Assembly (NCBI GenBank): GCA_019635715.1 | Contig: JAHBYY010000017.1 | Span: forward strand, 1-63,286 | Length of the DNA stretch: 63,286 nt | Direction of reading: 5' to 3' | DNA from: Rhizobiaceae bacterium | Lineage (GTDB): Bacteria > Pseudomonadota > Alphaproteobacteria > Rhizobiales > Rhizobiaceae | Part shown: one piece after another, positions 20,268 through 52,651 of the stretch | Numbering within the stretch: the first letter of the stretch is position 1 | Layout of the letters: each line of letters begins with the position of its first letter | The notes under the pieces: model-generated | The model's input: only the letters and a program-made list of their open reading frames with translations | Databases searched by the model: none | What the model was told of the DNA's origin: nothing | Translations under genes and position numbers: made by a program

Positions 20268-21740
20268 ATGACAAGCCTCCCAGACAATGTGCGAAGCCAA
20301 GCCTTCATCGACGGCGCGTTCGTCGATGCCGAAGACGGGGCGGAGTTCGAAAATCTCAATCCGGCGACCGGGAAACTTCTGGTCAAGGTGGCCGCGTGCT
20401 CGGCGCGCGACGTCGACGCGGCGGTGCGCGCGGCGCGCGGCGCGTTCGAGGCCGGCACGTGGAGCCGCATCGAGCCCCGTGAACGCAAGAGGATATTGCG
20501 CAACTTCGCCGACCTCGTCGAAGCCAACGGCAAGGAGATCGCCCTTCTCGATTGCATCGACGCGGGAAAGCCCATCGCCGACTGCGAAAACCTCGACGTT
20601 CCCGACGTCGTCAACAATATCCGCTGGTACGCCGAAGCCATCGACAAGGTGTTCGGCAAGATCTCGCCCACGGGGGAGGGCAATCTGGGCCTGATCGTCC
20701 GCGAGCCGGTCGGCGTGGTCGGCATGGTGCTGCCGTGGAACTTTCCGGCAGGCACGCTCTCCTGGAAGATCGCACCGGCGCTCGCCGCCGGCAATTCGAT
20801 CGTCGTCAAGCCGGCCGAGCTCGCGCCGCTCTCGACGCTGCGCATCGCCGAACTGGCCTTCGAGGCCGGCATACCGGCCGGCGTCTTCAACGTCGTGCCC
20901 GGGCTCGGGCACATCGCCGGCAAGGCGCTCGGCCTGCATCCCGATGTCGATGTCATTTCCTTCACGGGTTCGACGGAGATCGGCCGGCAGTTCCTGCGCT
21001 ACTCGGCCGACAGCAATCTCAAGAAGGTCGTCCTGGAATGCGGTGGCAAGAGCCCGCAGATCGTGATGGCGGATGCAGCGGGAAATCTCGATCAGATCGC
21101 CGAGAATCTGGCCGCCGCCGCATTCTGGAACATGGGCCAGAACTGCACCTGCGGGTCGCGCATTCTCGTCCAGTCCAGCATCAAGCAGGATTTCGTCGAC
21201 AGGCTGGTCAATGCTTCGCGGAGCTGGATCGTCGGCGAGCCGACGGATCAGGCAACCAAGCTCGGACCGCTGATCGAAGCCTCCGCCCTGACGCGCGTGC
21301 TCGGCGCGATCGACCAGGCCAGGAAGGATGGCGCAACGGTGGTGGCGGGCGGCAACCGGCTTTTCCAGGAAACCGGCGGCTGGTTCGTCGAGGCGACCGT
21401 CGTCGACAATGTCGGTCCGGAGTCCGCCCTGGCCAGGGACGAGATTTTCGGACCGGTGGTCGCCATCCTGCCGTTCGAGACCGAGGACGAGGCCGTCCGG
21501 ATTGCCAACGCTTCCGCCTATGGCCTTGCCGCGACCGTGTTCTCGACCGACATCAACGTCGCGATCCGTGTCGCCCGCCGGGTGCAGGCCGGAACGGTGG
21601 CGGTCAACGCCTATGGAGAAGGCGACATCACCACGCCTTTCGGAGGCTACAAGACCTCCGGCTTCGGCGGCTACGACAAGGGGCTGGAAGCTTTCGATCA
21701 GTACACGCAGATGAAGACGATCTGGGTTACGCTGGGCTAG
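20268..21740 (+). CDS. Aldehyde dehydrogenase (PuuC-like)
   Basis: This 490-residue NAD(P)-dependent aldehyde dehydrogenase has every catalytic feature: PWNFP with N158, GSTEIG near residue 234, general base E257 in LECGGKSP, and the nucleophile C293 in GQNCTCG. Its C-terminal PFGGYKTSGFGGYDKGLEAF resembles the gamma-glutamyl-aminobutyraldehyde dehydrogenase (PuuC) group. In this module it could oxidise 2-oxoglutarate semialdehyde or another omega-aldehyde. It might also supply the 4-guanidinobutyraldehyde step missing from the arginine module at 41-52 kb. Both are inference. Confidence 0.9.
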   Translation: MTSLPDNVRSQAFIDGAFVDAEDGAEFENLNPATGKLLVKVAACSARDVDAAVRAARGAFEAGTWSRIEPRERKRILRNFADLVEANGKEIALLDCIDAGKPIADCENLDVPDVVNNIRWYAEAIDKVFGKISPTGEGNLGLIVREPVGVVGMVLPWNFPAGTLSWKIAPALAAGNSIVVKPAELAPLSTLRIAELAFEAGIPAGVFNVVPGLGHIAGKALGLHPDVDVISFTGSTEIGRQFLRYSADSNLKKVVLECGGKSPQIVMADAAGNLDQIAENLAAAAFWNMGQNCTCGSRILVQSSIKQDFVDRLVNASRSWIVGEPTDQATKLGPLIEASALTRVLGAIDQARKDGATVVAGGNRLFQETGGWFVEATVVDNVGPESALARDEIFGPVVAILPFETEDEAVRIANASAYGLAATVFSTDINVAIRVARRVQAGTVAVNAYGEGDITTPFGGYKTSGFGGYDKGLEAFDQYTQMKTIWVTLG

Positions 21741-41204: not shown

Positions 41205-43028
41205 TCAGAGGATGCGCTTCCCGAAAGCCGACATGACGAAGCTCAAGGCTTCCGTCGAGACGCGCTCGTCGAGCGCCGGCGTCAGGCCCGAGACGTCCAT
41301 CGAGATCATGCCGCCGTTCAGCGCGATGGCCTCCATCGCCAGATGCGTCTCGCGCACGGTGATGCCGCCAGACCCGTCCGCCCATCCCCGAATCTCCGTC
41401 ACGCTCGGCGAATAGCTGACATGGAAGCCCAGCGTTCCGGTGGTGGCGATCTGCAGCGCCTGGCGCATCACGTCGCGCATGCCGAGCGCATCGATGTCGG
41501 CCATGGTGAAGACGGTGACGCGCGACTGCTTGAGAATCGCCGCCTCGGCGGGGCTCGCCTCGCGCAGGCCGACGAGAACCACGTTCTCCGGCGAGAGCTG
41601 CGGCTGCAACGGCCCTGGCCCGTCGACAAGGCCGAGCGCCTGGGCAAGCACCGACAGCTCTGCCGCCTCCGCCTCGCCGGTTGCCGCCATCGCCGCCCGC
41701 GAATCGAACCAGATCAGGCCGAGCGAGTGGGTGGCGCCGACCGCCGCCGCCAGCCCGGAGAGGGCGCTGCGGCGGTCCCTGCCGGCGGTCAGCCGCAGCA
41801 GGCCGGCGGGCAGCCGGTCGGTATCTCCCGGCTCGACCACGTCGTAGCCCATCGCCTCCAGGCGTTCGCCGGTGCCACGCCGGGCGAGCACGCCGCCGGC
41901 CTTGGCATCCGCGACGATCTGCACCATCTTGCGGCGCGGCGCGGCCGCGTCGACATCGTGTAGCGGGGTCTTCTCGATGTATTCGGAGGTCATCGCGGCC
42001 AGCATAGCGCCGTAGCTCATGCGGAACGAGATGCGGTCGCCGACTGAAACGGGCGGTTCGGCGTCGCTGACGTCCATCAGCAGGTGATCGCTCGACCCGC
42101 CGAGCACGCGCACGCCCTTGACCAGCGGCACCAGCCCCTCGATCAGCACGTCCTCGCGCCCGATGTTGGCGATGGCGCGCAGGCGGTCGCCCTCGTCGAC
42201 GAAGACCGGCTGGTTGCCGAACGCGTCGTAGCCGGAGCGCCCGATCGGCCGCGACGGCTTGAGCTTCACCTCGATGACGTCGCAGGTCAGCTTGCAGGCG
42301 TCGCGTTCGATCTTGTCCCAGGGCAGCTCGCGGAAGGTTTCGAGACCGCCCTGCAGGATCGCTTCGCCGACCCGCAGATTGTTGATGCCGGCGGGCAGGA
42401 CGCCGTCGAGCAGCAGCGGCAGCGACGACGACGCGCCGCCGGAAACGTAGTCGAGCTGCCGGCCGGTCAGCCGCTCGACCTTGTAGGCGTGGGCGACGAG
42501 CTGGCCGAGATTTTCCTCCGTCGGCATGATCGCGCCGAAACATCCGAGATTCGTGCCCACCCCGGCGATGCGCACGCCCTTCATCGCGAGGATCTGCTCG
42601 ACGGTGGGCAGCAGATCCTTCGGCCAGACGCCTTCCCTCAGGTCGCCGAGATCGATCATCAGGATGATGTCGTGGACCTTGCCCATGCGTTCGGCGATGC
42701 GCGACAGCTCCCGGATGATCGCCGGCTCCGACTGCATCGAGACGTCGACCGTGCGCACCACCTCCTCGACCCGGGTGATCGGCGGGCTGCGCAGCAGCAT
42801 CACCGGCGCGGAGATGCCGCTTTCGCGCAGGCGCCGGATGTTCTCGAAACGCGATTCCGCCAGCCCGGCGACGCCGCCGCGCAGCATGGCGCGCGCCACC
42901 TGGGGCATGCCGCAGGTGCCCTTGGTCACGCCGAAGACCTTGATCCCGCCGGCCGCGCAGGCGGAAACCACGGCGCGGGCGTTGCGCTCGATACGGCCGA
43001 GATCGATGGTGACTTGAGGTCCGGACAT
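41205..43028 (-). CDS. Fusion of PLP amino-acid racemase and degenerate arginase-fold domain
   Basis: The 607-residue protein joins two folds. Residues 1-360 match alanine/ornithine-type racemases: PLP Lys K36 in FGVTKGTCG, then DLGDLREGVWPKDL, GVGTNLGCFG and DYVSGGASSSLP. Residues 400-607 match an arginase: LIWFDSRAAM, NVVLVGLREASPAE, FTMADIDALGM, then ETHLAMEAIALNGG, MISMDVSGLTPALD and AFGKRIL. Arginase metal motifs are lost: GGDHS is GRDRRS, DAHxD is DSRAA (442-446) and SFDxDxxD is SYSPSVTEI (538-546). The racemase half probably makes D-arginine; the other half may bind arginine or regulate. It overlaps the dehydrogenase gene by one base. Confidence 0.85.
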   Translation of the reverse strand: MSGPQVTIDLGRIERNARAVVSACAAGGIKVFGVTKGTCGMPQVARAMLRGGVAGLAESRFENIRRLRESGISAPVMLLRSPPITRVEEVVRTVDVSMQSEPAIIRELSRIAERMGKVHDIILMIDLGDLREGVWPKDLLPTVEQILAMKGVRIAGVGTNLGCFGAIMPTEENLGQLVAHAYKVERLTGRQLDYVSGGASSSLPLLLDGVLPAGINNLRVGEAILQGGLETFRELPWDKIERDACKLTCDVIEVKLKPSRPIGRSGYDAFGNQPVFVDEGDRLRAIANIGREDVLIEGLVPLVKGVRVLGGSSDHLLMDVSDAEPPVSVGDRISFRMSYGAMLAAMTSEYIEKTPLHDVDAAAPRRKMVQIVADAKAGGVLARRGTGERLEAMGYDVVEPGDTDRLPAGLLRLTAGRDRRSALSGLAAAVGATHSLGLIWFDSRAAMAATGEAEAAELSVLAQALGLVDGPGPLQPQLSPENVVLVGLREASPAEAAILKQSRVTVFTMADIDALGMRDVMRQALQIATTGTLGFHVSYSPSVTEIRGWADGSGGITVRETHLAMEAIALNGGMISMDVSGLTPALDERVSTEALSFVMSAFGKRIL

Positions 43029-44281
43029 CACTGGAACTCGTAGGTGAGGCCTTTCGGGTCGATCTCGGGCCTGCGCTGCGCGACGAGATCGGCCAGCAGC
43101 TTGCCGGAGCCTGCGGCCATGGTCCAGCCGACGTGGCCGTGGCCGGTGTCGAGATAGAGGTTCTTGTAGCGCGCCCGCCCGATGACCGGCACCGAGTTCG
43201 GCATCATCGGCCTGAGGCCGGCCCAGAACTCGGCCTTGCGCTCGTCGAAGGCCCCGGGAAAAAGTTCCCTGCCGGTCCGCAGCAACTTTGCGAAATCCTC
43301 GGGCCGGTGGCTCCTGTCGAACCCGGCAAACTCCGCCGTGGCGGCGAGCCGGATGCGGCCGCCCAGCCGCGAATAGGCCATCAACTGATCCTCGTCCGCG
43401 CCGCCCATGGTCGGCGCATGCGTCTCGTCCTCGATCGGCATCGTCACCGTGTAGCCCTTGACCGGATAGACCGGGAGGTCGATGCGGTATCTGCGCCCGA
43501 GCAGGCCGCTCTCGGGTCCCATGGCGATCACCACCGCGTCGCCCGCCACCGGCCCCGCCGAAGTCCTCACGGCGCGCACCACCTCGCCGTCGATGTCGAG
43601 GCCCTGCACGTCGGTGCCGAACATGAAGCGGACGCCGAGCCGCGCGCTGCAATAGGCCGAGAGCTGCTCGACGAAGCGGCGCGAATCGCCGGTCTGGTCG
43701 AGCGGCGAATAGACGCCGCCGGCGATCCTGTGCCTTGCGCCGGCGAGACCCGGCTCCAGTTCGACCAGCCGGTCGGGGTCGACGATCTCGATCGGCAGGC
43801 CGCGCTCGGCGAGATAGCGGTAGGTTTCGGCGCCGTGGGCGAGGCTTTCCTTGGAGCGGAAGAAGTAGAGGATGCCCTTCCTGCGCTCGTCATAACCGAT
43901 GGCGGTCTCCTCGGTCAGCGCGTTGATGCAGTCGCGCGAATAGAGCGCCAGCCTCAGCTTGACGTCGGTGTTGGCGCGGCAGCGCGCCGCCGTGCATTGG
44001 GCGAGGAAGCGCAGGCTCCACAGCAGGAAATAGGGGTCGGGGCGCAGCCGGACCTTGATCCCGAGATCCTTGTCGTAGAGGGCGCGCAGGAAGGTTTTGA
44101 GCGCCGCGGGCGATGCCCAGGCGGTCGCGTCGCCCGGCGACACCAGGCCGGCATTCGAATAGCTGGTGCCGCGCGCCGCCGCTTCATGGCGCTCGACAAC
44201 GGTCACTTCGTGGCCGTCCCTGGCGAGGTAGTAGGCGGCGGCCGTCCCGACGACGCCGGCGCCGAGCACCAGGATCTTCAT
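43028..44281 (-). CDS. D-amino-acid dehydrogenase (DadA-like)
   Basis: This 417-residue FAD protein starts with VLGAGVVGTAAAYYLARDG and has the DadA landmarks TSYSNAGLVSPG, GGVYSPLDQTGDS and a C-terminal DTGHGHVGWTMAAGSGK. Such enzymes oxidise D-amino acids to 2-oxo acids with electrons going to the respiratory chain. Translational coupling to the racemase fusion and the neighbouring guanidino genes suggest D-arginine as substrate, giving 2-ketoarginine. D-alanine or another basic D-amino acid cannot be excluded. Confidence 0.88.
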   Translation of the reverse strand: MKILVLGAGVVGTAAAYYLARDGHEVTVVERHEAAARGTSYSNAGLVSPGDATAWASPAALKTFLRALYDKDLGIKVRLRPDPYFLLWSLRFLAQCTAARCRANTDVKLRLALYSRDCINALTEETAIGYDERRKGILYFFRSKESLAHGAETYRYLAERGLPIEIVDPDRLVELEPGLAGARHRIAGGVYSPLDQTGDSRRFVEQLSAYCSARLGVRFMFGTDVQGLDIDGEVVRAVRTSAGPVAGDAVVIAMGPESGLLGRRYRIDLPVYPVKGYTVTMPIEDETHAPTMGGADEDQLMAYSRLGGRIRLAATAEFAGFDRSHRPEDFAKLLRTGRELFPGAFDERKAEFWAGLRPMMPNSVPVIGRARYKNLYLDTGHGHVGWTMAAGSGKLLADLVAQRRPEIDPKGLTYEFQ

Positions 44282-44381: not shown

Positions 44382-45998
44382 TCATGGCGACCGCACCAGT
44401 TGCAGTGCGAGAGGCGATCCCTCGCGGATCTCGATCAGCGTCGGGACGCTCCGCCGCGCCGACTCCGCCAGGGCGTCGCGCAGCGCCGCGATATCCTGCG
44501 GCCGCGACGCCTCGCAGCCGAGCCCCCTGGCCACCGCGACGAAGTCCGGCGTGAAGATGTCGACGCCGATCTGCGGAATGCCGCGCTCGGCCATGAACGC
44601 CTTGATCTCGCCGTAGCTGGCATTGTTCCAGACGATCACCGCCGCGCCGATCCCCGCCTCGACCGCCGCCGCCATCTCGGGAAGGGAAAACTGGATGCCG
44701 CCGTCGCCCATCAGCGCGACGACCGGGCGATGCGGTGCACCGAGCCTGGCGCCGAACGCCGCCGGCATCCCGTAGCCGAGCGTGCCGTAGCCGGTCGAGG
44801 AATTGAAGTAGGAGCGCGGCCGCGCCGCCTGGTAGAACTGGTTGGCGCAGTAGACGGGCTCGGTCTGGTCGCCGGCGACGATGGCGCCGGGCAGGACCTC
44901 GTCGACGATCTCCATGAGGCGCCGGTGCGTCGCGCAGGCCGGCCACAGACCCTGATCGACCGCGGTGCGGATCGCCGCGGCGCGCGCCGCGCCGCCGCTG
45001 GCGGCCTTGCCGGGCGGCAGCGCGGAAAGCAGCGCGGCAGCCGCGAGCTTCGCGTCGGCGACGATCGGCAGCGCCGCGGGAAACTGCGTCACCAATTGGA
45101 GCGGATCGATGTCGATATGGATCAGCCTGCCGCCGAAGCTGACCGGATGCGGCTCCGGATACATTTCCGTCTCGCCGAACTCGGTGCCGATGGCGAGAAC
45201 CACGTCGGCGGCGGCGAGCTCGGCGCGCAGCGGCGCCATGCCGAGATTGCCGGACAGCCGCAGCGGATGATCCGGCGGGACGATGCCCTTGCCGTTGATC
45301 GTCATGAACACCGGTGCGTCGAGGCGCTCGGCCAGCCCGCGGATCTCGCCGGCCGCATCCTGGGCGCCGCCGCCGGCAATGATCAGCGGGCGCCGTGTCG
45401 TCGCCAGCATGGCGGCGGCCTCGGCGATCCTGGACGGATCGGGCGCCGCCCGTCCCGGCAGGGTCCAGGCGGCGGGAGCGCTGTCGTCCACTTCCGCGAC
45501 GATCACGTCGAGCGGGATCTCGATGTGGACGGGCCGGGGCCGCGACGACGAAAACACCGCGAAGGCGCAGGCCAGGATCTCCGGAAGCTGCGACGGCGCC
45601 AGGATGGTGTGGCTGAACGCCGTGACGCCAGACACCAGTCCCTGCTGCGACGGCAGTTCGTGCAGCCGGCCGTGGCGCATCCCCAACTGCTCGCGCGCAT
45701 TGACGCTGGAGATCACCAGCATCGGCACCGAGTCGGCATAGGCCTGTCCCATCGCGGTGGCGATGTTGGTCATGCCGGGGCCGGTGATGATGAAGCACAC
45801 GCCGGGCTTTCCCGTGACGCGCGCATAGCCGTCGGCCATGAAGCCGGCGCCCTGCTCGTGGCGCGGCGTGATGTGCCTGATCCTGGTCGACGGCAGGCCG
45901 CGGTAGAGTTCCACCGTATGGACGCCGGGGATGCCGAAGATCAGCTCGACGCCGTAGGCCTCGAGCAGCTTGACCAGATGTTCGCCGCAGGTCGCCAT
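44382..45998 (-). CDS. Thiamine-diphosphate decarboxylase, probably 2-ketoarginine (5-guanidino-2-oxopentanoate) decarboxylase
   Basis: This 538-residue ThDP enzyme has three domains. The catalytic Glu is E48 in TPRHEQGAG, the central domain contains LIIAGGGAQDAAGE, and the ThDP-Mg motif is MGDGGIQFSLPEMA, ending about 28 residues later at WNN. It resembles acetolactate synthase-like enzymes such as AruI, which converts 2-ketoarginine to 4-guanidinobutyraldehyde in the arginine transaminase pathway. Flanking DadA-like and guanidinobutyrase genes support that over acetolactate synthesis, and no small subunit is present. Confidence 0.84.
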   Translation of the reverse strand: MATCGEHLVKLLEAYGVELIFGIPGVHTVELYRGLPSTRIRHITPRHEQGAGFMADGYARVTGKPGVCFIITGPGMTNIATAMGQAYADSVPMLVISSVNAREQLGMRHGRLHELPSQQGLVSGVTAFSHTILAPSQLPEILACAFAVFSSSRPRPVHIEIPLDVIVAEVDDSAPAAWTLPGRAAPDPSRIAEAAAMLATTRRPLIIAGGGAQDAAGEIRGLAERLDAPVFMTINGKGIVPPDHPLRLSGNLGMAPLRAELAAADVVLAIGTEFGETEMYPEPHPVSFGGRLIHIDIDPLQLVTQFPAALPIVADAKLAAAALLSALPPGKAASGGAARAAAIRTAVDQGLWPACATHRRLMEIVDEVLPGAIVAGDQTEPVYCANQFYQAARPRSYFNSSTGYGTLGYGMPAAFGARLGAPHRPVVALMGDGGIQFSLPEMAAAVEAGIGAAVIVWNNASYGEIKAFMAERGIPQIGVDIFTPDFVAVARGLGCEASRPQDIAALRDALAESARRSVPTLIEIREGSPLALQLVRSP

Positions 45999-46290: not shown

Positions 46291-47244
46291 TCACCGCCGC
46301 TGCACCCCCGGCAGCACGCAGAGCATCTCGAACAGCAGGTAGGCGGCGGTGAGCGCGGTATTGCCGCTTGTATCGTAGGGCGGGGAGACTTCGACCAGGT
46401 CGCAGCCGACGAGGTTCAGCCCGAAGCAGCCGCGAATGATCTCCAGCGCCTGGATCGTCGTCAGCCCGCCGATCTCCGGCGTGCCGGTGCCGGGGGCGAA
46501 GCCCGGGTCGAGGCTGTCGATGTCGTAGGACAGATAGACGGGCCCGTCGCCCATCTGGGCGCGCACCTCCTGCATCAGCGGCGTCAGCGACTTCCACCAG
46601 CATTCCTCGGCCTGGACGACGCGGAAACCCTGGCTGCGCGGCCAGTCGAAATCGTCCGCCGCATAGCCGGAGCCGCGCAGGCCGATCTGGATGCAGCGCT
46701 TGGTGTCGAGCACGCCAGCCTCGACGGCGCGGCGGAACGGCGTGCCGTGGGCGATCGGCTCGCCGAACATGTGGTCGTTGATGTCGGCATGCGCGTCGAC
46801 GTGGATCAACCCGACCGGCCCGTGCTTGTTGGCCATGGCGCGCAGGATCGGATAGGCGATGGTGTGGTCGCCGCCAAGCGTCAGCGGAATGCAGTTTTCC
46901 GCGAGGATGCGGTCATAGGCCTCGGTGATGATGTCCATGCAGCGCGGCAGGTTGAACGTGTCGATCGCCACGTCGCCGATGTCGGCCACCTGCAGGCTGT
47001 CGAAGGGAGCGGCGCGCGAGGCCATGTTGTACGGTCTGACGAAGCTCGACTCGGCGCGGATCTGGCGCGGCCCGAAGCGGGTGCCGGGCCGGTTCGAGGT
47101 GCCGATGTCCATCGGCACGCCGACGAAGCAGGCGTCGAGCCCCTGCGCCGTCGGCTGGGCCGGCAGGCGCATGAAGGTGGCCGGCGCGCCGAAGCGCGGC
47201 ATCTCGTTGCCGCCGAGCGGCTGGTTGAACGTCTTGTCGGTCAT
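46291..47244 (-). CDS. Agmatinase/guanidinobutyrase-family ureohydrolase
   Basis: This 317-residue ureohydrolase has the full dinuclear Mn site: H127 in GGDHT, D150, H152 and D154 in DAHAD, and D241 and D243 in SYDIDSLDPGFAPG. That makes it catalytically intact, unlike the arginase-like half at 41205. The module suggests 4-guanidinobutyrate as substrate, giving GABA and urea, as GbuA does in Pseudomonas. Agmatine or 3-guanidinopropionate remain possible. The start overlaps the upstream nitrilase gene's stop by four bases. Confidence 0.9.
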   Translation of the reverse strand: MTDKTFNQPLGGNEMPRFGAPATFMRLPAQPTAQGLDACFVGVPMDIGTSNRPGTRFGPRQIRAESSFVRPYNMASRAAPFDSLQVADIGDVAIDTFNLPRCMDIITEAYDRILAENCIPLTLGGDHTIAYPILRAMANKHGPVGLIHVDAHADINDHMFGEPIAHGTPFRRAVEAGVLDTKRCIQIGLRGSGYAADDFDWPRSQGFRVVQAEECWWKSLTPLMQEVRAQMGDGPVYLSYDIDSLDPGFAPGTGTPEIGGLTTIQALEIIRGCFGLNLVGCDLVEVSPPYDTSGNTALTAAYLLFEMLCVLPGVQRR

Positions 47245-48053
47245 GTCCGGGATTCCATCGTTGCGGCGACCGCGCCGTAGAGTTCCGGCCGCCTGTCGGT
47301 CAGGTAGGGGTTGAGCTGGCGCGAGCCCAGCAGGGCCGCCTTGTCGAGGTCGGCGACGATCAGCTCCTCGCCGCGACCGGCGCGGGCGATGTCGGTGCCG
47401 TCGGGCCCGATCACGCAGGAGAGGCCGCAATAGTCGAAATCGGCCTCCGCGCCGCAGCGATTGGCATAGGCGACGAACACCTGGTTCTCGAAGGCGCGCA
47501 CCGGCACGACGGCCCGGGCGACAATGTCGAACGGCCGCATCAGCGCCGTCGGCACGACCATCAGATCGGCGCCATCGAGCGCCAGCCGCCTGGCGTTTTC
47601 CGGAAACTCGACATCGTAGCAGATCAGCAGGCCCAGCCTGAAGCCGCCGATCTCGAAGATCTCCGGGGCGGCCTGACCGGGCGAGAACTGGGCGCGGTCG
47701 ACCGCGCCGAAGAGGTGGGTCTTGCGGTAGGTCGCCAGGATCGCGCCGTCCGCGCCGATGGCGATCGCGCTGTTGTAGACCGCTTCGCCGTCCTGCTCCG
47801 GAAATCCGAAGACCAGCGCGATGCCGGCGCCGCGGGCGATCTGCCGGGCCGCGCCGATCGACGGCCCGTCGACCGGCTCGGCCAGCCGCCGCACGTGCTC
47901 CGCTCCGAGCGCGTATCCGGTCAGGAACATCTCGGGCGCCGCCATCAGATCGGCGCCGCGCCGGCGCGCCTCGTCCGCGGCGTGGGCGAGGCGTCCTAGA
48001 TTGCCCTGCGGCGTATCGGCCTTCTCCGGCCCCTGGAAACAAGCGATGCGCAT
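47241..48053 (-). CDS. Carbon-nitrogen hydrolase (nitrilase superfamily)
   Basis: This 270-residue protein has the full Glu-Lys-Cys triad: E41 in APEMFLTGY, K111 in YRKTHLFG and C145 in LLICYDVEF. Members hydrolyse amides, carbamoyl groups or nitriles. In this module it could hydrolyse 4-guanidinobutyramide, a product of arginine oxygenases, or an N-carbamoyl compound as AguB does; no arginine oxygenase gene is in sight. It overlaps the ureohydrolase gene by four bases, so the two are made together. Confidence 0.88.
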   Translation of the reverse strand: MRIACFQGPEKADTPQGNLGRLAHAADEARRRGADLMAAPEMFLTGYALGAEHVRRLAEPVDGPSIGAARQIARGAGIALVFGFPEQDGEAVYNSAIAIGADGAILATYRKTHLFGAVDRAQFSPGQAAPEIFEIGGFRLGLLICYDVEFPENARRLALDGADLMVVPTALMRPFDIVARAVVPVRAFENQVFVAYANRCGAEADFDYCGLSCVIGPDGTDIARAGRGEELIVADLDKAALLGSRQLNPYLTDRRPELYGAVAATMESRT

Positions 48054-48135: not shown

Positions 48136-48936
48136 TCAGCCCTCGGAAGCCATGGCGCCCAGCAGCTTGCGGATGTCGCCGAACCTGGCGATCAGGCCGA
48201 AGACCAGTGCCGCGACCGCCACGAAGAAGATCGACACCGCCGCCATGGTCGGCGTGTAGCCGTAGCGCAGCGCGTTGAAGATCTTGATCGGCAGCGTCTC
48301 GATGGTGAAGCCGACGGTCATGTAGGCGACGATGTATTCGTTGAGCGACAGCACGAAGGCGAAGGCGTAGCCCGAGACCAGATAGGGCAGGATCAGCGGG
48401 AACACGACGGTCCTGAGCACCGTGCGGTCGTCGGCCCCCATGGTCGCGGCCGCTTCGACCAGCGAGCGGTCGATCGACGCGAACCCGAGGGACAGGGTGA
48501 CCAGCGGCAGCGTCACGAAGAAGATGCCGTGGCTGATCGCCGCCGTCCAGGGCTGGCCGTAGAGGCCGCTGGTCGCCCAGAAAGTCAGCATGCCGAGCGC
48601 CGTGATGACCGGCGGCAGGATGAACGGCGCCACTCCGAGAAGCTGGAAGACGTTGGCCCAGGGCGCGATGCGGCGCCACAGGAACCAGGCGAGCGGCAGA
48701 GCGACGGCGACGGCGATGGCCGCCGCGCTCAAGGCGAGCAGGATCGACGCGATCAGCGCCCGCCGCCATTCGGGATCGGCGAAGATCTGCTGGTACCAGG
48801 ACATCGAGAAACCGACCGGCGGGAAGGTCAGGTCCTGCTTCTCGTTCACCGACACGCCGGCGACCACGATCAGCGGCAGGGCGAGGAACAGGCCGACGGC
48901 GAAGAAATACAGCCTGCGCAGGAATGTCTGCCTCAC
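48136..48936 (-). CDS. Polyamine-type ABC transporter permease (PotC-like)
   Basis: This 266-residue permease has six helices, the first being LYFFAVGLFLALPLIVVAGV. The EAA loop reads SLVEAAATMGADDRTVLRTV. It belongs to the spermidine/putrescine group (PotC/YdcV) and forms the channel with the permease at 48933, which it overlaps by four bases. In this cluster it probably imports arginine, D-arginine or a guanidino compound rather than a polyamine. The nitrilase gene begins 82 bases downstream in the transcription direction. Confidence 0.88.
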   Translation of the reverse strand: MRQTFLRRLYFFAVGLFLALPLIVVAGVSVNEKQDLTFPPVGFSMSWYQQIFADPEWRRALIASILLALSAAAIAVAVALPLAWFLWRRIAPWANVFQLLGVAPFILPPVITALGMLTFWATSGLYGQPWTAAISHGIFFVTLPLVTLSLGFASIDRSLVEAAATMGADDRTVLRTVVFPLILPYLVSGYAFAFVLSLNEYIVAYMTVGFTIETLPIKIFNALRYGYTPTMAAVSIFFVAVAALVFGLIARFGDIRKLLGAMASEG

Positions 48937-49787
48937 AGCGCGTTCTCCTTCCTGCCGGCGAACAGCGTCAGGCCGACCAGGGCCAGCGAGATGAGCACGA
49001 GGAACACCGCCATCGCCGCGGCGAAGGGCATGTTCGACTGGTAGATCGCCTGGTCGGTGATGAGCACCGAGAGCGTCCAGTGCTGCGGCCGTCCGAGGAT
49101 CTGCGGCAGCAAATAGGAGCCCAGCGCGAAGACGAAGACCATGATGACGGTGGCGACAACGGTGTTGCGCAGTGCCGGGACCACGACGTTGAAGAAGGCG
49201 CGGACCGGCGAGGAACCGAGCGTGCGCGCCGCTTCGAGCAGCGTCGGGTCGAGCCGCACCAGGGCAGGGTAGAGCACCAGTACGGTGTAGGGCAGGGCCT
49301 GGTAGACCATTCCGGTCAGCACCGCGCCGAAGGAGGGCAGCAGCGCCACCGGCTCGTTCATCAGGCCGAGCCAGACGAACAGGTTGGTGATGCCGGCGGT
49401 GCGCGAAAACAGCGTCGACCAGGCGAAGCCGATGATGACTTCCGAGAGCGACAGCACCGACAGGAGGACCACCAGCCAGACCGTCTGCACCTTCCTGGAC
49501 TGTTTGGTCAGCAGGTAGGTGAAGGGAAAGGCGATGGCGACGCAGCAGATCGCCACCAGCACGGAGAGCATCAGGGAAAAGCCGAGGACGCGGCCGAAGA
49601 ACAGGGATATGAACCGGCCGTAATTGTCGAGCGTGAAGGCGACCGTGTAGAAGCCGGCCGGATCGCGCTGGAAGAAGCTGACGGCGATCATCGTCGAGAA
49701 GGGCACGACGAAGAAGACGATCAGCATCAGCCCGGGGAAGACGAGCGGGGCGTAGTCGGCGAGCGACTTCGGCGCCTCGCGTCTCAT
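48933..49787 (-). CDS. Polyamine-type ABC transporter permease (PotB-like)
   Basis: This 284-residue permease has six helices and an EAA loop at PTLLEAARTLGSSPVRAFFN. The N-terminal LVFPGLMLIVFFVVPFSTMI is a typical PotB first helix. It overlaps both neighbours by four bases (the ATPase upstream and PotC downstream), so the three membrane-complex genes are translated in one chain. Confidence 0.88.
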   Translation of the reverse strand: MRREAPKSLADYAPLVFPGLMLIVFFVVPFSTMIAVSFFQRDPAGFYTVAFTLDNYGRFISLFFGRVLGFSLMLSVLVAICCVAIAFPFTYLLTKQSRKVQTVWLVVLLSVLSLSEVIIGFAWSTLFSRTAGITNLFVWLGLMNEPVALLPSFGAVLTGMVYQALPYTVLVLYPALVRLDPTLLEAARTLGSSPVRAFFNVVVPALRNTVVATVIMVFVFALGSYLLPQILGRPQHWTLSVLITDQAIYQSNMPFAAAMAVFLVLISLALVGLTLFAGRKENAL

Positions 49788-50821
49788 GACTTCACCACGA
49801 CGCAGCTTTCGGCCGGCAGGACGACGCCGACCCTGTCGCCGGCTTTGGCGTCGACACGCTCGCGCGGGGTGGTCACCGCGACGATCGTCGGACCGCCGAC
49901 GTCGACATAGGTTTCGATCGTCGCGCCGAGATCGCGCACGAAGGTCACGGTGCCGTCGAGCGTGCCGGCGCCCGCCGCGGCGATGCGGACGTCCTCGGGG
50001 CGGATCGAGATGGACGCCTTGGCCGCGCCGTTCGGCGGTGCGAGCCCCGGGATCGCGGCGCCCTGAACCATGGCGCGCCCGGCCGAGTCGGTGGCGATCT
50101 CCAGCAGGTTGGTCGAGCCGATGAAATCGGCGACGAAGGCATCCGCCGGCTTGCGGTAGATCTCGATCGGCGACGCGGCCTGGCGGATGCGCCCCTGGCC
50201 CATGACGACGACAAGATCGGCCATGGTCATGGCTTCGCGCTGGTCGTGGGTGACGACGATGGTGGTGATGCCGAGCCGCTGCTGCAATTGCCTGAGCTCA
50301 ACCTGCATGGATTCGCGCAGCTTGGCGTCGAGCGCCGACATCGGCTCGTCGAGCAGGAACAGCCGCGGCGACAGCGCCAGCGCGCGCGCGATCGCCACGC
50401 GCTGGCGCTGGCCGCCGGAGAGTTTTGCGACCGGCCGGTCGGCGAAGCCGGGCAGATGGACGAGCTTCAGGAGTTCGTCGGCGCGCCTGCGTTGCTCTTC
50501 GCGAGGGGTGCCGCGGATGCGCAGCGCATAGGAGACGTTGTCGCCGACGCTGAGATGCGGGAACAGGGCAAGCGACTGGAACACCATGCCGAAATTTCGC
50601 TGGTGCGTCGGGACGCCGGTGATGTCCTGCCCGTCGATGACGATCGATCCGGACGTCGGCTCCTCGAGCCCTGCGATCATCCTGAGCAGGGTCGTCTTGC
50701 CGCACCCCGACGGACCGAGAAGGCACACGAAGGTGCCGTGCGGCACGGAAAGATCGAGGCTGTCGACGGCCTTGAAGTCGCCGAACTGCTTGGTGACGTC
50801 GTTGATCGCAAGTCCGGACAT
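49784..50821 (-). CDS. Polyamine-type ABC transporter ATP-binding protein (PotA-like)
   Basis: This 345-residue ATPase has Walker [11 protein letters not shown]-loop FQSLALFPHLSV, signature LSGGQRQR, Walker B FLLDEPMSALDAKLR and switch His in VVTHDQREAM. A C-terminal TOBE domain (about residues 270-345) includes ASISIRPEDVRI. It powers the PotB/PotC-like channel. It is 388 bases from the binding-protein gene, with a hairpin in between, so expression may be lower than that of the binding protein. Confidence 0.92.
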   Translation of the reverse strand: MSGLAINDVTKQFGDFKAVDSLDLSVPHGTFVCLLGPSGCGKTTLLRMIAGLEEPTSGSIVIDGQDITGVPTHQRNFGMVFQSLALFPHLSVGDNVSYALRIRGTPREEQRRRADELLKLVHLPGFADRPVAKLSGGQRQRVAIARALALSPRLFLLDEPMSALDAKLRESMQVELRQLQQRLGITTIVVTHDQREAMTMADLVVVMGQGRIRQAASPIEIYRKPADAFVADFIGSTNLLEIATDSAGRAMVQGAAIPGLAPPNGAAKASISIRPEDVRIAAAGAGTLDGTVTFVRDLGATIETYVDVGGPTIVAVTTPRERVDAKAGDRVGVVLPAESCVVVKS

Positions 50822-51209
50822 GCAGGGTTCCTTCTGTGCCTGGAAGGCCGCGACGACTCCCGGCGGGGTCTTCCCGTCGGGAAGCTGGCGAGAAACGCTG
50901 TTCTACGCTTAGATGGCGGTGAGAGCGGAATTCGGAAGCGAAAGCAGCGGCGCCGAGCCAGCCGGCGCATCGGGGAGGATCGGCCACCCCGACCGCGGCG
51001 ACGGCCTCGCTCTCGAACCGGAGGTGCGCCATGTGGTCTCGACCATGTAGCGTCACCCTGGAACTGAAATGGACCCGGACGGGCTGGCAAATCTCGATCC
51101 GGGTCCGCTTCAGGATCTAGGAAACGGGGTCGGGCGAAAGCCCGGCTCCCACTCCGGATCTGAAGGTAGCGCCGAAAGCCGTCGACGACAAGCTTTGCAC
51201 CACCGCTTC
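50822..51209 (-). other. Long intergenic stretch inside the transporter operon
   Basis: The 388 bases between the binding-protein and ATPase genes hold no gene I can support. The one clear element is the hairpin at 51071-51106. The spacing suggests a processed or attenuated transcript, or an internal promoter for the ATPase gene. Confidence 0.5.
51071..51106 (-). terminator. Stem-loop downstream of the binding-protein gene
   Basis: GGACCCGGA (51071-51079) and TCCGGGTCC (51098-51106) form a perfect 9-bp stem with an 18-base loop, 103 bases after the binding-protein stop in the direction of transcription. It parallels the hairpins found after the binding-protein genes at 2470 and 60271. Confidence 0.45.
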
Positions 51210-52289
51210 TCACCCCGCGATCATCTCGGTCCACTTCTGGTTCAGCCAGTCGGACTTGGACGTGTAGAGGTCGTAGCGCGGGATGATCGGCTCGATCTCG
51301 GAAGACACCGCCGCGAACTCTTCGGGCGTCAGGTCGAGCGTCTCCTTCTTGAGTGTCGGCGCGGTGCCAACCTTGCGCGACATCAGCCCCTGGATCGACG
51401 GCTGGCTCATATAGTCGATGAAGACATGCGCCTCATCCGCCTTTTCCGAAGCGCGCGAGACCACCCAGTTGCCCGAATCCTGGATGCCGCCTTCCTTCGG
51501 GAAGGTCGAGCGCACCGGCTGGCCGTCGGCGGCCGCCAGCCCGGTCACATCGTGATAATACTGGCCCATCGGGATCTCGCCCGATTTCAGCGCCTGTTCG
51601 AACTGCGCCTCGTCGCGGTACCAGAGACGGACGTTCGGCTTGACCTCGGCGAGCTTCTCGAAGGCCTTGATCTGGCCTTCCTCGCTGTCGAGCGCGTTGG
51701 TGCCGCCGAAGAAGGTCTTGGCCGTCACTTCGAGCAGGAACGAGTTGGAGACCAGCGCGAGCAGCCCGAGCTTGTCGGCGTTCGCCGGGTCCCAGAACGC
51801 CGCCCAGGATTCGGGCGCGGTCGGATAGGCCTCGGTGTTGGTGACCAGCGTGATGTACCAGGCCACCGCGCCGATGCCGGCGACGCGGCCGTCCGGATAC
51901 TTGTTGATGAAATGGCCGAGCAGGTCGCCATAGTGCTTGATGCGCTTCTCATCGATCGGGGTCCAGAGCTCGGTCGACTGGCCCTTGAGCGTCGAGGTCT
52001 GCGACATCATCGAGACGTCGGCGGGGGCCTGTCCGGCCCTGGCGGCCTGTTCGAGCTGCACCAGCCAGGCCTCGCCGGTCGGCTCGGCAATCGATTCGAC
52101 GGCGATGCCGGTCGCCTTGGTGAATTCCGGGAAGATGTTCTCGTCGAACGACTTCTTGAAGTAGCCGCCGTAGACGCCGATCTTCAGCGACTTGTCCTGG
52201 GCGCGAAGCACCGTGGGCATGGCGAGCAGGCCCGCCGTGGCAAGTCCGGCGCCGAGCACGGCGCGGCGGTCGATCATCGTGAAGTTCAT
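51210..52289 (-). CDS. ABC transporter substrate-binding protein (PotD-like)
   Basis: This 359-residue family-1 extracellular binding protein has a signal with a twin-arginine-like stretch (MIDRRAVLGAGLATAGLLAM) and likely cleavage after LRAQ. The mature part has SLKIGVYGGYFKKSFDENIF, GEAWLVQLEQAARAGQAPAD and GAVAWYITLVTNTEA, as in polyamine/opine binding proteins. GGAGAA lies nine bases before ATG 52289. It is the first gene of the minus-strand operon, next to the divergent LysR gene, and is probably the main controlled target. The ligand is inferred to be a guanidino compound. Confidence 0.9.
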   Translation of the reverse strand: MNFTMIDRRAVLGAGLATAGLLAMPTVLRAQDKSLKIGVYGGYFKKSFDENIFPEFTKATGIAVESIAEPTGEAWLVQLEQAARAGQAPADVSMMSQTSTLKGQSTELWTPIDEKRIKHYGDLLGHFINKYPDGRVAGIGAVAWYITLVTNTEAYPTAPESWAAFWDPANADKLGLLALVSNSFLLEVTAKTFFGGTNALDSEEGQIKAFEKLAEVKPNVRLWYRDEAQFEQALKSGEIPMGQYYHDVTGLAAADGQPVRSTFPKEGGIQDSGNWVVSRASEKADEAHVFIDYMSQPSIQGLMSRKVGTAPTLKKETLDLTPEEFAAVSSEIEPIIPRYDLYTSKSDWLNQKWTEMIAG

Positions 52290-52651
52290 CTGTTCGTTCT
52301 CCTTGTGTTTGTCCGGCTTGCGGCCGGCTTCCTGTTCTTTTGCCGGCAAGCCCGCGCCGCCGCCGCGGGCCGTCGACGGGTCCGCGATCGGCTTCGGATG
52401 CCCCCGTCGGCGGCGGATCGTCCGGAAACCCGTCGTCGACAATCGCGGATGCGCGTCGGCATGGCAGTTTGGGCGGTGCTGCTTCAAGCCTGGGGCGCTC
52501 GCATCGGCCTTGCCGCCTGCCCGCTGCCCCGGAAGTTCCCAGTCGTCTGCTTGTTGTTGTTGCCTTGAAGAGTGCGTCAATTTTCTTGAAACGGCAATTG
52601 ATATTGCTACAGTCGTCATTGTGAGATTTTCTCACAGTTGAGGTTGGCGAC
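52290..52651. promoter_or_regulatory. Divergent control region between the guanidino operon and the LysR gene
   Basis: The 362-base gap is A/T-rich near the LysR gene. It holds the perfect inverted repeat TGTGAG-ATTTT-CTCACA (52620-52636) just before the LysR ribosome site, and a wider one, TCAATT...AATTGA, near 52578-52602. Both have the size of LysR boxes, one fit for autorepression and one for activation of the leftward operon. The part at 52330-52480 shows nothing I recognise. Confidence 0.6.

Follow-up and report, generated by a model that had tools for sequence, protein, structure and literature searches.

A PLP racemase fused to a pseudo-arginase that lost its metal site and retained arginase interface residues: a candidate arginine racemase in Rhizobiaceae and other bacteria

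Why does a PLP racemase carry, at its C-terminus, an arginase-like domain from which the metal ligands have been lost? The question is raised by a gene in the window analysed here, a stretch of 63,286 nucleotides from a Rhizobiaceae bacterium (contig JAHBYY010000017.1). A sequence-only reading of this DNA had proposed that the gene (41205-43028) joins an amino-acid racemase to an arginase fold, without giving a strand; Pfam, NCBIfam, phmmer and Foldseek agreed that the fusion is real (Table 1). The open reading frame was complete on the minus strand, from the ATG at 43028 to the stop at 41205-41207, and frame 1 of the plus strand contained internal stops. An assembly join was rejected as the source of the fusion, because 61 full-length public loci have the identical architecture. 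The genome to which the window belongs (85% complete) contained one copy.

Table 1. Positions in the window of the fusion gene, its domains and diagnostic residues, and the neighbouring genes.
Feature	Position	Strand	Basis
Fusion gene, Orr-type PLP racemase and pseudo-arginase, 607 aa	41205..43028	minus	Pfam, NCBIfam, 76 aligned full-length fusions
Racemase domain, residues 1-355, Ala_racemase_N and following beta part, Orr-like	41964..43028	minus	Pfam, NCBIfam, model
K36 codon, predicted PLP lysine	42921..42923	minus	Invariant in 76/76 fusions
Pseudo-arginase domain, residues 366-607	41208..41933	minus	Pfam, phmmer, model and Foldseek
GRDRRS (416-421) replacing GGDHS, metal His gone	41766..41783	minus	Motif His (H419) in 0/76 fusions vs 39/39 arginases
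DSRAA (442-446) replacing DAHxD, D442 retained, His and second Asp gone	41691..41705	minus	D442 74/76, H444 1/76, D446 0/76
SYSPSVTEI (538-546) at the SxDxDxxDP motif, shortened, both metal Asp missing	41391..41417	minus	0/76 for both
D513 codon, interface acid, human D204	41490..41492	minus	76/76 fusions, 39/39 arginases, 0/5 guanidinobutyrase/agmatinase-type
R559-E560 codons, human R255-E256	41349..41354	minus	76/76 fusions; guanidinobutyrase/agmatinase-type R 0/5, E 1/5
E566 codon, interface acid, human E262	41331..41333	minus	76/76 fusions; guanidinobutyrase/agmatinase-type 0/5
D-amino-acid dehydrogenase, DadA/DauA-like	43028..44281	minus	NF001933, 458.8 bits (cutoff 383)
5-Guanidino-2-oxopentanoate (2-ketoarginine) decarboxylase, AruI-like	44382..45998	minus	NF005712, 755.2 bits (cutoff 500)
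Metal-intact ureohydrolase, agmatinase-type by model	46291..47244	minus	TIGR01230, 213.1 bits (cutoff 174.3)
Carbon-nitrogen hydrolase, part of this run of genes	47241..48053	minus	PF00795, E 7.8e-56; no NCBIfam cutoff reached
ABC uptake transporter: two permeases, ATPase with TOBE, solute-binding protein	48136..52619	minus	Domain scan, 3/4 genes
ABC transporter gene, permease by position	48933-49787	minus	Position only

Pfam matched residues 8-224 to Ala_racemase_N (E 3.8e-28) and residues 413-595 to Arginase (PF00491; E 4.7e-16; score 59.5 bits, cutoff 22). The best NCBIfam model was the ornithine racemase Orr (NF040742), which covered residues 4-354 and, at 392.6 bits, did not reach its cutoff of 480; the rocF arginase (TIGR01229; residues 413-604, 71.8 bits) and alanine racemase Alr (TIGR00492; 35.5 bits) models also remained below their cutoffs of 227.6 and 168, respectively. 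The fusion shares with Orr the PLP lysine and an alanine-racemase-type barrel, whereas the Orr model, with 351 positions, has no arginase part. Three full-length matches on plasmids are annotated either as plain "alanine racemase" (two) or not at all (one), and the name given to the two is probably wrong. The PLP racemase with an intact lysine that had been described at the N-terminus was borne out by the Ala_racemase_N match and by the invariance of K36, D129 and Y339, each of which was found in 76/76 fusions. Since stand-alone racemase relatives are approximately 350-410 residues long, the C-terminal domain was probably added to an already complete racemase.

By phmmer, residues 408-606 aligned with residues 88-298 of the 299 of Bacillus caldovelox arginase, stopping one residue short of its end, in agreement with the earlier description; the N-terminal stretch of the arginase (roughly the first 87 residues) is reduced to about 42 in the fusion. 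Among PDB entries, a full-length model (pLDDT 81.4, pTM 0.59) matched arginases as well as alanine racemases and D-threonine aldolases, the latter two being the top Foldseek matches. When the C-terminal domain was modelled alone (pLDDT 85.6, pTM 0.88), the input consisted of 27 fusion sequences only, which kept true arginases from influencing the model; all models were monomers. The predicted domain matched the arginase fold, as had been proposed: the best 50 of 1253 Foldseek matches (E up to 10) were all arginases, with a best E of 1.6e-18, TM scores of 0.78-0.85 by query length and an rmsd of 4.0-6.8.

For comparison, a genome scan yielded 70 loci, of which 64 had the fusion, whole or cut, and 6, in Bacillota, had the racemase only. 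Sixty-one of the 64 were used (excluded were L054 and L061, truncated by contig ends, and the frameshifted L058), and together with the window, L072 and 13 sequences from phylum and family samples they made up 76 full-length fusions, 71 of them distinct, with some genomes repeating species already sampled. G808 (L119, L129), in which the gene is split on two contigs, was omitted; L001 and L083 duplicate the window, and L130-L132 repeat L072, L117 and L118. Losses and retentions were read from an alignment of the 76 fusions with 39 true arginases.

The motif replacements named by the sequence-only reading, with D442 (presumably human arginase D124) as the sole metal ligand left, were present in the window exactly as described. 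They were also general: a complete metal set was found in none of the 76 full-length fusions, and recent decay of a single copy was therefore not upheld. The third metal motif fell into gap columns in all 76, H457 and E581 were retained in 0/76, the position of human E277 was gone in 76/76, and position 420 was histidine in 2/76; D442 was missing only in Thiofilum and Thiothrix. With the six metal ligands absent except D442, and the TIGR01229 score below its cutoff, the fusion would not be classed as a catalytic RocF. The earlier picture of a non-catalytic arginase fold on an intact-looking racemase is supported, and neither of the two refuting conditions set with it, a mismatch with the arginase fold or intact ligands in related proteins, was borne out.

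Seventy-four (74) alignment columns reached at least 95% conservation in the 39 true arginases, and 8 of these were retained in all 76 fusions: D513, G516, G555, R559, E560, E566, S600 and G603. Of the 24 charged positions among conserved arginase columns, the four retained in 76/76 fusions correspond by alignment to human D204, R255, E256 and E262; D513 and E566 are D199 and E256 of B. caldovelox arginase when counted along the phmmer alignment. D204, E256 and E262 are named in the literature as interface residues, and we take R255 to be one as well. The hypergeometric probability for the retention of D204, E256 and E262, a set named only after the alignment had been seen, was 0.0009 over all columns and 0.002 over the 24 charged columns, and is only a guide because the 76 fusions are related (19 clusters at 90% identity). 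E481 was invariant in the fusions though it lies outside the conserved arginase columns.

These residues are not needed for the ureohydrolase fold as such, since they are mostly absent from metal-intact relatives: in five guanidinobutyrase/agmatinase-type sequences, four of which are close kin of one another, the checked metal ligands and the E277 position were present, and 1 of 20 interface positions was retained (the E560 position, in one sequence). The general fold was thus rejected as the cause of their retention, D513, R559 and E566 being absent in 5/5 and E560 in 4/5. Judged from these alignments, the fused domain retained the residues peculiar to arginase subunit contacts and lost those of general ureohydrolase chemistry.

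Going by their titles, two papers reportedly deal with an allosteric site through which arginine activates the B. caldovelox enzyme and with what Glu256 and Asp204 contribute to oligomers and cooperativity of human arginase. According to the available part of one source, Arg308 of arginase bridges Glu262 and, in the rat enzyme, Asp204 of the neighbouring subunit; the Arg308Ala enzyme is monomeric, and guanidinium restores the trimer and cooperativity and gives more activity; B. caldovelox arginase has no Arg308, and its structure 3CEV contains L-arginine in the same interface region (PMC7925462). On the other hand, breaking the B. caldovelox hexamer left the kinetics much the same, and human and rat arginase monomers had comparable activity (PMC11271267, in the portion available), indicating that the interface need not matter for activity.

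We tentatively favour, with a little less than even confidence, the explanation that the protein racemises L-arginine, that its dead arginase domain holds the enzyme together as an assembly, and that L-arginine at the retained interface may stabilise or activate this assembly. The C-terminal domain would have descended from a true arginase, lost the manganese site and most of the substrate pocket, and been kept because its subunit interface was still useful. The retained residues would be those that, in arginases, hold the mammalian Arg308 or, in the B. caldovelox enzyme, free L-arginine; the dead domain would bring racemase units together in a larger oligomer, which interface-bound L-arginine would stabilise or activate, so that the flux to D-arginine would rise with L-arginine. 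The suggestions of the sequence-only reading that the domain binds arginine or sets the oligomer state gain support from retained D513, R559, E560 and E566; racemisation confined to abundant arginine, which that reading also put forward, is a hypothesis. The sharper version, in which the dead arginase is a feed-forward allosteric sensor of L-arginine that switches on the racemase into a D-arginine/2-ketoarginine route, is possible, though we lean against it.

The main rival to an assembly with L-arginine as its possible ligand is pure scaffolding, in which the pseudo-arginase only holds racemase dimers in arginase-like trimers and the charged residues form ligand-free salt bridges. The same invariant interface residues would be expected of it, and they could be structural; moreover, the mammalian site is occupied by the protein's own Arg308 (PMC7925462, available part), and K604 near the C-terminal end, which was retained in 74/76 fusions, might itself fill the interface site. 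However, the window protein ends within one residue of the B. caldovelox arginase end, and the arginine at the C-terminal end, R605, was retained in only 63/76; with no longer tail, no invariant tail arginine fills the site. In addition, guanidinium-binding acids in all 76 sequences are not required of a pure scaffold. We consider this rival somewhat unlikely.

The genomic context bears on the substrate. Upstream of the fusion and on the same strand lies a dehydrogenase gene, whose TGA overlaps the ATG of the fusion by one base (TGATG). Beyond it come the decarboxylase and ureohydrolase genes, then those of the carbon-nitrogen hydrolase and the ABC transporter (Table 1). The ureohydrolase, scoring above the TIGR01230 cutoff, is the true enzyme that had been placed near the fusion, and from its context we infer a guanidinobutyrase; the carbon-nitrogen hydrolase could presumably act on guanidinobutyramide or another amide. 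In the proposed pathway, the racemase would convert L-arginine to D-arginine and pass it to the dehydrogenase encoded just upstream, which would yield 2-ketoarginine for the decarboxylase, an aldehyde dehydrogenase and guanidinobutyrase. A gene for an aldehyde dehydrogenase was among the cluster genes in one Labrys and in Thiofilum, which would complete the route on paper: L-Arg to D-Arg, 2-ketoarginine, 4-guanidinobutyraldehyde, 4-guanidinobutyrate, and GABA plus urea. The genome of the window contained 19 aldehyde dehydrogenase matches, one of them in the window (20319-21722).

A dehydrogenase gene lay directly upstream of the fusion in 61/64 loci; among the three exceptions, L027 starts at the edge of the available DNA, and L042 and L071 have no dehydrogenase. 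Genes for the decarboxylase and ureohydrolase were both within the available flank in 11/64 loci (Labrys 3, Shinella 2, Rhizobium 1, MAGs 3, Thiofilum 1 and Thiothrix 1), and a decarboxylase above the curated cutoff was linked to the fusion in the window, Labrys, Thiofilum and a Burkholderiaceae MAG. Against the preferred explanation of an arginine racemase, only the dehydrogenase was found linked to the fusion in Mesorhizobium, which makes up most of the sample; the best decarboxylase matches of carriers G547 and G741 share only 50% identity and are located elsewhere; and a divergent clade of fusions lies beside another transporter-type gene. Decarboxylase matches occurred in 116/297 family genomes, most of them around 45-55% identical, and these paralogues blur the association with the fusion.

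Accordance of the best model with Orr, together with the Bacillota relatives, leaves ornithine as a possible substrate. A second rival would therefore have the racemase act on ornithine or lysine, with the dead domain contacting a partner enzyme or channelling substrate. The divergent clade, beside a MatE gene in the two of its four loci that were scanned and beside an agmatinase-type ureohydrolase in one genome, would suit it, and pairs of pseudoenzyme and enzyme exist in the family, as in metformin hydrolase (PMC11271267, as far as available). We regard it as improbable: the linkage to 2-ketoarginine decarboxylase in the four cases above argues against the substrate, and the encoded guanidinobutyrase-type enzymes, without the arginase interface residues, are unlikely partners through that surface. 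In distinction from Orr, the substrate of the fusion is probably arginine.

The fusion was found in Mesorhizobium, Pseudaminobacter, Labrys, Shinella, Rhizobium, several MAGs, Thiofilum and Thiothrix. Full-length copies occurred in 4/398 genomes of the phylum sample and 14/297 of the family sample (G808 omitted), giving 15 carriers, three of which, including the genome of the window, were in both; in the class sample (385 genomes), this genome was the only carrier. That the fusion strictly replaces arginase was rejected, since RocF was above its cutoff in 3/15 carriers. In a tree of racemase domains, a single branch (support 91/87) separated 24 fusions from 37 stand-alone proteins, and the split recurred in 92% of 200 bootstrap trees. 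A single fusion event is the simplest reading of fusions lying on one side of one branch, and the pseudo-arginase was probably fused once.

The dN/dS ratio was below 1 in 11/11 fusion pairs. For the C-terminal domain, omega was 0.05-0.14 in ten pairs (dS being saturated in one of them, L059/L069) and 0.38 between the window and L002; the corresponding values for the N-terminal domain were 0.04-0.12 and 0.24. Omega was higher in the C-terminal domain in 8/11 pairs and dN in 10/11; this domain is thus under selection, often looser than on the racemase. Recent decay was rejected by the common loss in 76 homologues and by this purifying selection. That the domain is a functionless, decaying arginase carried along by the racemase, for which the lost catalytic residues and the higher dN and omega might speak, is very improbable and was already disfavoured, given 76 full-length sequences whose lowest pair identity is 36%, the low omega in 10/11 pairs, 14 strictly invariant residues and the absence of any intact-site fusion among the 76.

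RocF (B. caldovelox 1CEV/3CEV, Thermus and B. subtilis) resembles the fused domain in its fold and the D204/R255/E256/E262 interface set; the fusion differs in the missing metal ligands and catalytic residues, the shortened N-terminal part and the attached racemase. The closest precedent is Oda, the ODC/arginase of Fusobacterium, whose loss of arginase is said, in the title of Mothersole 2022, to concern oral-associated species, whereas an intact site occurred in 0/76 racemase fusions. Like the fusion, Oda combines a PLP enzyme with a C-terminal arginase domain, which is non-functional in F. nucleatum and for which the available part of the source only suggests a non-catalytic role (PMC12826042); in contrast to Ala_racemase_N, its N-terminal domain is an ornithine decarboxylase. 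The racemase partner sets the fusion apart from Oda, and the pattern of what was kept is unusually clear. An arginase-like protein of Trypanosoma brucei, reportedly the subject of Hai 2015 by its title, and the metformin hydrolase MetCaCb are, to our knowledge, not fused to a racemase. Both are comparable as ureohydrolase-family members or subunits without a working metal site, as described for MetCaCb in PMC11271267 (available part). Pseudomonas aeruginosa racemises arginine through two coupled dehydrogenases: the D-arginine dehydrogenase DauA also yields 2-ketoarginine (available text of PMC5619798), and DauB converts this into L-arginine. In the fusion loci, by contrast, the dehydrogenase has a PLP racemase as its linked partner. 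Among the literature matches listed, with most subscription papers out of reach, no racemase-arginase fusion or its pathway was described. The statement that no protein of this type is known may therefore hold, among the matches listed, for the racemase fusion, but not for a PLP enzyme with a dead arginase domain, of which Oda is an example (PMC12826042, part).

The family is a clean natural case in which to ask why a dead enzyme domain is maintained, with probably one fusion event, catalytic residues gone and interface residues untouched across dozens of species. If arginine binds at the interface, a secondary ligand site of an enzyme would have evolved into a regulatory domain, and D-arginine catabolism in rhizobia and sulfur bacteria would have a racemase of its own.

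Several minor observations were made in the related loci. The fusion of Mesorhizobium helmanticense (L058:8001-9823) is frameshifted within the racemase domain according to its tblastn pieces, either by a sequencing error or by decay. Genes for a 505-aa protein in Labrys (L043:4114-5628; no Pfam match at E 1e-5) and a 512-aa protein in Shinella (L045:1546-3081; CPSase ATP-binding, just below the cutoff) adjoin that of aldehyde dehydrogenase. An AAT domain (PF03417), of the acyl-CoA:6-aminopenicillanic-acid acyltransferase type, was found in arginine-branch clusters of Labrys (L043:5640-6653) and Thiofilum (L059:178-1149). The divergent clade, L072 (G034), L116 (G972), L117 (G913) and L118 (G1024), is 36-39% identical to the window protein, and its dead domain is even shorter, with the positions of D513, R559, E560 and E566 retained. 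Its members adjoin a transporter-type gene and not arginine genes (contexts L133-L136; MatE in L133 and L136, the two scanned), and in G913 the agmatinase-type ureohydrolase that adjoins the fusion has its metal motifs.
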